Source: a virus. Taken from it: 25,727 nucleotides of DNA. The notes beneath the pieces are model-generated. The model did not search any database, was not told where the DNA came from, and worked only from the letters and a program-made list of their open reading frames with translations. A program made the position numbers and the translations under genes. The stretch spans positions 1 to 25,727 of IMG/VR virus record IMGVR_UViG_3300031706_000039; one strand, 5' to 3'. Of this stretch, positions 15,511 to 17,427 are shown piece after piece. The stretch's first letter is position 1. Each line of letters starts with the position of its first letter.

Positions 15511-15882
15511 ATGTTGGCATTAATTAAAACGTTAGCGGGGGTAGGTGGCACTTTTCTCCAGGGTAAAATGGACAACAAAAAAGCTGAGATCGAGGGGCGA
15601 AATAATGCCATCCAGGAGAAGCTAAAACAAACGGGCACCTGGGATGAAATACACGCGAAAAATAGCGGTGAAAGCTGGAAAGACGAATATTTTACTTTGC
15701 TTTTTTCTATCCCCTTGGTGCTGGCTTTTATACCCCCAGCGGTACCTTTTGTGGAGCAAGGTTTTAGGGTTTTGGATATGATGCCCGATTGGTATAAGCA
15801 AGCATTGGCGGTCCTGGTTGCTGCGTCAGTTGGTTATCAAAAGCTAACACAGCTATTCACTAAAAAAGCGGGTGGAAAATAA
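15511..15882 (+). CDS. Holin (GTA-type 3TM family likely)
   Basis: The 123-aa protein starts just after the lysozyme stop. A hydrophobic N terminus (ALIKTLAGVGGTFLQG), a charged amphipathic middle (MDNKKAEIEGRNNAIQEKLKQ), and two strong membrane segments (FTLLFSIPLVLAFIPPAV and WYKQALAVLVAASVGYQ) are visible. The core SWKDEYFTLLFSIPLVLAFIP matches the pattern of the 3TM gene-transfer-agent release/phage holin family. Such proteins open the inner membrane for endolysin. It is the last late gene before attP. Its C terminus is basic (LFTKKAGGK). The two-holin possibility (with the 59-aa gene) is open. Confidence 0.8.
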   Translation: MLALIKTLAGVGGTFLQGKMDNKKAEIEGRNNAIQEKLKQTGTWDEIHAKNSGESWKDEYFTLLFSIPLVLAFIPPAVPFVEQGFRVLDMMPDWYKQALAVLVAASVGYQKLTQLFTKKAGGK

Positions 15883-15934
15883 TTAAATTAATTAGCTATT
15901 GACTAGGGCGGGGGCTATCTTTAGAATGCGCCCA
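15881..15934 (+). promoter_or_regulatory. Stable-RNA-type promoter facing attP
   Basis: TTGACT (15899-15904), a 17-bp spacer and TAGAAT (15922-15927) form a near-consensus sigma-70 promoter. An AT-rich stretch directly upstream (AATTAAATTAATTAGCTA) looks like an UP element, and GCGCCC directly follows the -10, the GC-rich discriminator typical of rRNA and tRNA promoters under stringent control. It points rightward across the attachment core, with no phage gene downstream on this strand before the terminator at 16141. Confidence 0.75.
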
Positions 15935-16077
15935 GCAGTAACAAGCAAGACGAAGTTGGGTTGCAAAACTCGTTTGTAAGTCATTGTTTTTATTACTCGC
16001 TGTTTGTAGGTATTTGAACGTTTGATTGTTTATTAATGTTGTTTACAATCAAAGACTTAGGCCATATACTGGTTGTG

Positions 16078-16123
16078 CTTTCTAAGCCGTGGGTCGAGGG
16101 TTCGAATCCTTCAGGGCGTACCA
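16078..16123 (+). other. attP core: 3' half of tRNA-Arg(UCU)
   Basis: From the anticodon loop (TTTCTAA, 16079-16085, anticodon TCT) through the 3' anticodon stem, T arm (GAGGG-TTCGAAT-CCTTC, 16096-16112), acceptor strand AGGGCGT, discriminator A and encoded CCA (16121-16123), the sequence is a normal tRNA-Arg. Upstream there is no D arm or matching 5' acceptor strand, so this is not an intact tRNA. Such identity blocks restore the host tRNA upon integration. Left of about 16077 the anticodon stem fails to pair, marking the core edge. Confidence 0.88.
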
Positions 16124-16140
16124 CAAACCGCCTATATATC

Positions 16141-16163
16141 AAGAGCTTACAGGCTCTTTTTTT
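16141..16163 (+). terminator. tRNA terminator carried by attP
   Basis: AAGAGC (16141-16146), a 6-nt loop, and GCTCTT (16153-16158) followed by a T-run. It stands 18 nt past the CCA and would terminate the reconstituted host tRNA-Arg after integration. Confidence 0.82.
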
Positions 16164-16263
16164 ATGCCTTAAATTTGGGTTGCAATAAGGTTGCAATAAG
16201 GTTGCAAAACCCACGGCTAAAAAAAGGCCACTTATCAAAGCAGCCCAGGGGGAAACAAGGCGT

Positions 16264-17427
16264 TTATGCCTTGAATTTTGCCAGGCTAAACCCGTCTAAA
16301 TCTACCTCCATCCACTTAATGTCTTTGTGTCTGGCGCTATAATTATCGGTCTGTTTAGCCGTCGAATGGCCAGCCAGATGTTGAGGCAAACACCCCTGTT
16401 TTTCATGCTCATGTATTGCCAACGCGCGCCCCTGGTGAAAGCCTGGACGCTTGCCCATTGGCAAGTCGTTATAAAATCCAGTTACGTCGTCGCGCAAGCG
16501 TTTAAACTCTTTGGTTAAATAGTCTTTATCAATGTAGCTAAAATGTTGTCCAGACGCCTTTTTTCGAGCCGTCACTTTTTCCGGCTTGCGGTGGATTAGG
16601 TAGGGAGAAATAATATTAACTCGCCCCTGGCTAATTGGCCGCTCTAAGACTTCGCCCAATTCTGGCGTTATTTTAATGGCCAAATAACTGGTGTCATATT
16701 TGTGGGTTTTTTGCTGTACCACATACAATATGCCGTCTTTTATATTGTCTTTTTCCATGTTGCAAATGTCACCCCGGCGTTGAGTGGTGAGCATACAAAT
16801 ATCCATGGCCTTTTGCATCCAGGGTTCAGCCGCGTTATAGATTGCGCTCCAGCCGTCCTTTGTGTGGCGCTCCACTTCGGGTTCCTTGCCAATTTTTAGG
16901 CAGGGCGACGCAGGGTTGGTGTCCAGTTCGCCTTTGGTCCGGCCATAATCAATAGTAACCAGGAGGACTTTTAAAGTCTTGTCTCGCTCCCTGGCGTGCC
17001 CGGCGTTTTCTTCCGGGTCGTAAATACCATCTAAAAATTCAGATATGGCCAGGGTGGTTAATTGGCGACAGCCCCAGCCGTCAAAGTAGGCTTTAATCTT
17101 TTTATGAGCGCCGCGAATTTCAGCAATAGTGGATTTTGCCAATAACTTTTTGCCGGTCCCGTTTGATTTATACGCCAAGTAGGCGTCGCATAATGCCGCC
17201 AGGCTGGTTGAAGGGTGCAATACTGAATCGACTATTGAAGTGGACCCCACCAGCTTATCATTGAGCGTTTTTGCCGCTGCAATTGCGCTTTGTTTATCCG
17301 ACCCCATACCGTGGAATTTCTTGGTGATGGGGTGCTTATAGCGATAGGACAAACTGCCTTTGCCGTTACTGGTTTCATAAAGGTTAACTGGTAGCCGCTG
17401 GGTTGCTTTTGATTCCCGATAACGCAT
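16264..17427 (-). CDS. int: Tyrosine recombinase integrase (lambda-type)
   Basis: The 387-aa protein catalyses site-specific insertion at the tRNA-Arg-derived core next to its 3' end. The N-terminal ~60 residues (RLPVNLYETSNGKGSLSYRY..KKFHGMGSDKQSA) match the lambda Int arm-binding domain, a core-binding domain follows (~75-180), and the catalytic domain shows R217 (TTQRRGD), K240/243, H331-x-x-R334 (FHQGR), H354 (AGHS) and the nucleophile Y363 (DNYSAR). The start at ATG 17427 has GAGGTAATATT upstream. It lies 9 nt past the excisionase stop, so it is the last gene of the leftward operon. The gene is complete and looks functional. Confidence 0.95.
   Translation of the reverse strand: MRYRESKATQRLPVNLYETSNGKGSLSYRYKHPITKKFHGMGSDKQSAIAAAKTLNDKLVGSTSIVDSVLHPSTSLAALCDAYLAYKSNGTGKKLLAKSTIAEIRGAHKKIKAYFDGWGCRQLTTLAISEFLDGIYDPEENAGHARERDKTLKVLLVTIDYGRTKGELDTNPASPCLKIGKEPEVERHTKDGWSAIYNAAEPWMQKAMDICMLTTQRRGDICNMEKDNIKDGILYVVQQKTHKYDTSYLAIKITPELGEVLERPISQGRVNIISPYLIHRKPEKVTARKKASGQHFSYIDKDYLTKEFKRLRDDVTGFYNDLPMGKRPGFHQGRALAIHEHEKQGCLPQHLAGHSTAKQTDNYSARHKDIKWMEVDLDGFSLAKFKA

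Follow-up and report, generated by a model that had tools for sequence, protein, structure and literature searches.

A candidate replacement promoter for host tRNA genes beside the attachment site of a marine phage

The attachment region of the marine phage in virus record IMGVR_UViG_3300031706_000039 holds a sigma70-type promoter (15,899-15,933) directed at an attachment core that is identical to part of a host tRNA-Arg(UCU) gene. The arrangement of the locus makes it probable that this element is a replacement promoter, which would transcribe the host tRNA genes that integration severs from their own promoter. That phages can integrate into tRNA genes is generally put down to their rebuilding the tRNA that they enter. 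Rebuilding, by itself, leaves the downstream genes of a tRNA operon unaccounted for, and the present locus offers a concrete answer in the form of a phage-borne stable-RNA promoter that would serve the only tRNA-His of the host. The initial annotation had proposed that the phage replaces the transcription that it interrupts, and this proposal is supported by the context of the host operon, by the distribution of the promoter among phages, and by junctions reconstructed in silico.

Organization of the attachment region

The window, that is, the whole 25,727-nt stretch of DNA that was analysed, corresponds to a 25.7-kb virus record in which a rightward block, which includes tail genes and an endolysin-like gene and closes with a short gene, is followed by the attachment region and then by a leftward integrase gene. 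The features of the region are the following.

15,511-15,882, + strand: gene that ends the rightward late block, with a product of 123 aa, PHROG 2524, function unknown, common to the sister phages used as contrast
15,883-15,896, + strand: AT-rich, UP-like stretch 5' of the -35 box, read from the sequence; AT-rich in relatives, with 6 of 14 columns invariant
15,899-15,927, + strand: sigma70-type promoter TTGACT-N17-TAGAAT, from consensus and matrix scans; hexamer regions invariant in seven phages
15,928-15,933, + strand: G+C-rich discriminator GCGCCC, resembling host tRNA promoters; a GCC-G-rich variant in the other subgroup
15,934-16,076, + strand: untranslated leader from the presumed start to the core; conserved RNA structure not found; a 10-nt indel between subgroups
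15,959-15,969, + strand: putative left arm-type integrase site GGTTGCAAAAC, from a repeat search; invariant in seven phages
16,021-16,053, no strand assigned: palindrome TTTGATTGT-15-ACAATCAAA, partly conserved
16,077-16,123, + strand: attP core, a 47-bp exact match to the host tRNA-Arg(UCU) gene from anticodon loop to CCA
16,141-16,165, + strand: phage-borne intrinsic terminator (hairpin 16,141-16,158 and T-run)
16,178-16,210, + strand: three putative right arm-type integrase repeats GGTTGCAAWAM, from a repeat search
16,264-17,427, - strand: tyrosine integrase with a lambda-type arm-binding domain, from profile and PHROG matches

In the profile search of the integrase, the arm-binding domain PF09003 scored above the cut-off and PF00589 slightly below it (E 1.4e-5), and the PHROG match is to an integrase. 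The gene adjoins the core, to the left of which lies one repeat of the GGTTGCAAAAC type and to the right three, in keeping with the arm sites of a tyrosine-integrase attP. The core matches the 3' part of the tRNA over 47 identical base pairs, so that integration would rebuild the gene. The terminator differs between phages by paired changes (GAGC/GCTC versus GACC/GGTC) that preserve its hairpin, and the only listed rightward ORF nearby, at 16,073-16,342, overlaps the tRNA part and the terminator. The palindrome at 16,021-16,053 was discarded as a terminator as it lacks a T-run, and is likely an accessory element of the attachment site. A 16-nt inverted repeat (88%) was also noted, in which 16,079-16,094, at the anticodon-side end of the core, pairs with 16,209-16,224, just 3' of the third right repeat.

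Build and conservation of the promoter

Promoters of stable RNAs (rRNA and tRNA) have near-consensus hexamers, a spacer of 16-18 nt and a G+C-rich discriminator, and their strong activity is regulated by growth rate and ppGpp. The sequence features of this class are all found in the window, where TTGACT (15,899-15,904), a 17-nt spacer, TAGAAT (15,922-15,927) and GCGCCC (15,928-15,933) follow one another, preceded by an AT-rich stretch that starts directly 3' of the stop codon of the ORF at 15,511-15,882. These elements, spanning 15,883-15,933, are those that the initial annotation had described, and the orientation is as claimed, since the promoter reads rightward toward the core with no phage gene in between. 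The further claim of a textbook stable-RNA build also holds for the window, with the correction that GCGCCC is limited to some of the group and the other members carry GCCGTGG or GCCGTTG. In the genomes that contain the core, tRNA promoters are typically TTGAC(A/T)-N17-TAATAT or similar and thus share their build with the phage promoter. Their discriminators (for example, GCGCCCC, TCGCGCC, ACGCACC and GCGCACT) are of the N-CGC type, as is that of the phage (GCGCCCA). A promoter of such a build would suit expression at the level of tRNAs.

The promoter match alone proves little, because a consensus scan of 3 kb returned 8 promoter-like sites against 6.3 expected. With a simple weight matrix built from general knowledge, which was used for all promoter scores, only one site on the + strand of the whole window outscores the promoter; the highest score belongs to TTTACA-17-TATACT (16,042-16,070), a site near the core that is not conserved in relatives. 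Scans of IMG/VR provided 12 loci whose integrase is related (74-100% identical) and 19 that share the adjoining late gene. In seven distinct phage left arms, 21 of the 22 columns around both hexamers, which make up the conserved blocks TATTGACTAG and TCTTTANAATGC, are invariant, versus 49% of columns region-wide, a result with a probability of about 1e-5 when 22 regional columns are resampled at random and the relatedness of the phages is ignored. In the central spacer, none of 11 columns is invariant in the seven phages, and the spacer length is constant. It is this pattern of conservation in aligned sequences, rather than the consensus match, that is the real evidence for the putative promoter. 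A further IMG/VR scan with the promoter pattern matched 12 contigs, with the core lying 149-159 nt downstream in all but one, which ends first; the promoter was found in every related phage at the tRNA-Arg site whose left flank is in the sequence. Two of the attP regions (L021 and L022) have nearly identical left arms joined to a core and right arm of different variants, as if related phages had swapped arms by recombination at the core.

The host tRNA operon

Exact matches to the core occur in genomes of Oceanospirillaceae/Pseudomonadales, and the identical core points to these bacteria as the probable hosts of the phage. The initial annotation relied on there being genes downstream of the host tRNA-Arg(UCU), and such genes are present. 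In each of the six family genomes that contain the core, tRNA-Pro, tRNA-Arg and tRNA-His are clustered, and tRNA-Leu is added in five, so that tRNA-Arg is an internal gene of an operon Pro-Arg-His(-Leu), with tRNA-His directly downstream of it in each case. When one such operon (L003) was scanned whole, one sigma70-type promoter was found 5' of tRNA-Pro and one terminator 3' of tRNA-Leu. In the Arg-His spacers of L002-L004 nothing promoter-like was found, the scores being 2.3-6.4 versus 13.0-13.3 for the phage promoter. An order-wide pattern scan for Arg-His spacers was abandoned, being noisy and missing even the known host.

Each of the six genomes contains one full copy of tRNA-His, two of them with weak partial matches (76-83%) elsewhere, and a single near-identical copy of tRNA-Leu(UAG) is present in five genomes; these copy numbers depend on completeness, the genomes being mostly draft assemblies. 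As tRNA-His is downstream in the operon and single-copy, insertion in tRNA-Arg would cut the promoter from the sole tRNA-His. At another locus (L151:291-338, in G099:C25), a decayed 3' half of tRNA-His lies between repeats CAC-TNNATCCAA(G/C)T and is probably what remains of the attachment site of an element since lost.

Predicted consequences of integration

When integration was carried out in silico, one host operon became two complete transcription units. At attL, ARAGORN recognized intact tRNA-Pro and tRNA-Arg genes, followed by the phage terminator, in agreement with the earlier claim that the host would keep its tRNA-Arg with a phage-borne terminator. At attR, the phage promoter precedes an intact tRNA-His, which lies 236 nt downstream of the expected start, and then tRNA-Leu; a search of this in-silico junction for a terminator-like hairpin between the promoter and the two tRNA genes found none. 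At the level of sequence, what is expected of promoter-supplying elements is seen in the operon context and the in-silico attR, namely host genes cut from their promoter and a phage promoter that reads into them.

The mechanism that these junctions suggest would begin with integration of the phage into tRNA-Arg, the second gene of the host operon Pro-Arg-His-Leu. At attL, the host promoter would then drive tRNA-Pro and the restored tRNA-Arg, with transcription stopping at the phage-borne terminator. At attR, the phage promoter would start about 236 nt 5' of tRNA-His, read through the leftover 3' part of tRNA-Arg, and transcribe tRNA-His and tRNA-Leu, which would have lost their own promoter. 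In this scheme we infer that the promoter is active, that the leader is read through, that tRNA-His is processed out of the new transcript, and that the lysogen needs the promoter. When 116 family and 391 order genomes were searched with the integrase, no lysogen was recovered and the hits were distant integrases only (33-41%), which, where a tRNA was found alongside, neighbour tRNA-Pro(GGG) or tRNA-Val(GAC); a scan of viral contigs for attR junctions found none.

Phages at other tRNA sites

In sister phages with the same final late gene but an attP in another tRNA gene, the promoter is missing from the corresponding position, whether the target is tRNA-Leu (L030, L031, L033) or tRNA-Ala(GGC) (L028, L034). 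Two of them, L030 (score 11.2) and L034 (11.9), have weak promoter-like sites. Other contigs with attP in tRNA-Leu also have low promoter scores. The tRNA-Leu gene is the last of the host operon, and tRNA-Ala(GGC) stands alone in both hosts examined, with a convergent gene following in the one that has enough flank. The presence or absence of the promoter may represent one evolutionary event rather than repeated selection, because it is passed on together with the int-attP module.

We favour, with some reserve, a broader view, according to which phages carry an attP cassette that splits operons: a replacement terminator flanks the core on one side, and a stable-RNA promoter that mimics those of the host flanks it on the other. 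With such a cassette, phages could insert within essential tRNA operons, and where the target gene lies in its operon would determine whether the promoter is present. This rule can be surveyed across genomes, as a promoter is expected at tRNA targets internal to an operon and not at last or solitary ones.

Two further groups of viral contigs were noted. In marine contigs with attP in tRNA-His (L124-L149, e.g., L127 near 1891), no promoter as strong as that of the window was found, and the aligned left arms share a weaker conserved motif; about 145 nt 5' of the core, all of them have a weak -35 and a box that reads TATAGT or TATGAT. The tRNA-Pro sites found in viral contigs are all complete tRNA genes.

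Alternative roles of the promoter

In the circular form of the phage, promoter and terminator are in the right order, which makes a phage small RNA possible. The initial annotation had indeed foreseen an RNA of ~230 nt, and the predicted span of 15,934-16,165 gives about 232 nt, since the terminator at 16,141-16,165 follows the core and would define the 3' end. It is unlikely, in our judgement, that such an RNA, acting as a regulator or as a tRNA-fragment decoy in the circular or replicating form, is what the promoter is for, with transcription of host tRNA genes being incidental. The whole 232-nt RNA folds somewhat better than shuffled sequences (z -2.3), but the leader without the tRNA half and the terminator does not (z -0.35), the aligned leaders of relatives have essentially no covariation term, and a 10-nt indel separates them. 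A reading of the leader as a structured RNA thus found no support in the fold scores and the alignment. A phage small RNA would, in addition, leave unexplained why sister phages with other attachment sites are devoid of the promoter.

Very unlikely, too, is a role in recombination, by which transcription across attP would tune the access or direction of the integrase and the downstream host genes would be irrelevant. The location of the promoter in the left arm, beside an arm-type integrase repeat, and its restriction to this int-attP module would fit such a role, which nevertheless predicts neither a discriminator like those of host tRNA promoters nor the match with an internal operon position. 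Finally, the promoter might be a passive remnant, picked up from a host tRNA gene by imprecise excision and now functionless. This would account for the likeness to host tRNA promoters, in a region where similar consensus matches are common, but is highly improbable, as fixed hexamers and spacer length around a fully diverged spacer interior are the signature of selection on a promoter. Supply of transcription to the host tRNA genes thus remains the preferred role.

Relation to known systems

Promoter supply to interrupted genes is already known. In particular, the element IMEVchUSA3, integrated at dusA, has been shown experimentally to provide a promoter for the cut-off host gene, and the dusA-island literature states that ICE SXT does likewise at prfC (PMC4482086, PMC8409611). 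Like dusA islands and prophages and SXT, the window phage would give a new promoter to host genes severed from their own. In those systems, the element inserts at the 5' end of a protein-coding gene and replaces its promoter and N-terminus, whereas here, as far as can be read from the DNA, the core rebuilds a tRNA and a stable-RNA-type promoter would serve the next genes of the operon. In the open-access literature searched, no account was found of a phage promoter that serves the tRNA genes downstream of it, and a stable-RNA promoter for an essential tRNA operon looks like a new variation on a known theme.

Typical of tRNA-dependent lysogeny are a phage-encoded tRNA of the disrupted isotype and a short core that leaves the host tRNA unrestored. 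In mycobacteriophages with this type of lysogeny, such as Fionnbharth, the tRNA that is disrupted is replaced by a tRNA gene that the phage carries (PMC10865867). The window phage would similarly be a temperate phage that offsets the damage of integration to an essential host tRNA function, but by other means: no tRNA gene, and hence none of the same isotype, was found in the window, a record that may be incomplete, tRNA-Arg is rebuilt by the 47-bp core, and the compensation would consist of a promoter. Salmonella phage epsilon34 (P22-like) likewise combines a tyrosine integrase with an attP that matches the 3' end of the same tRNA, argU, but has no comparable rightward promoter 5' of the core (best score 8.6). 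In Haemophilus phage HP1, compared by its attP region alone, a complete tRNA-Lys lies beside an apparent 3' part of tRNA-Leu, as expected for a target within a tRNA cluster, so that HP1 carries a copy of the neighbouring tRNA gene where the window phage carries a promoter. This complete tRNA-Lys gene (L109:356-431) is not annotated as a tRNA in the HP1 record.
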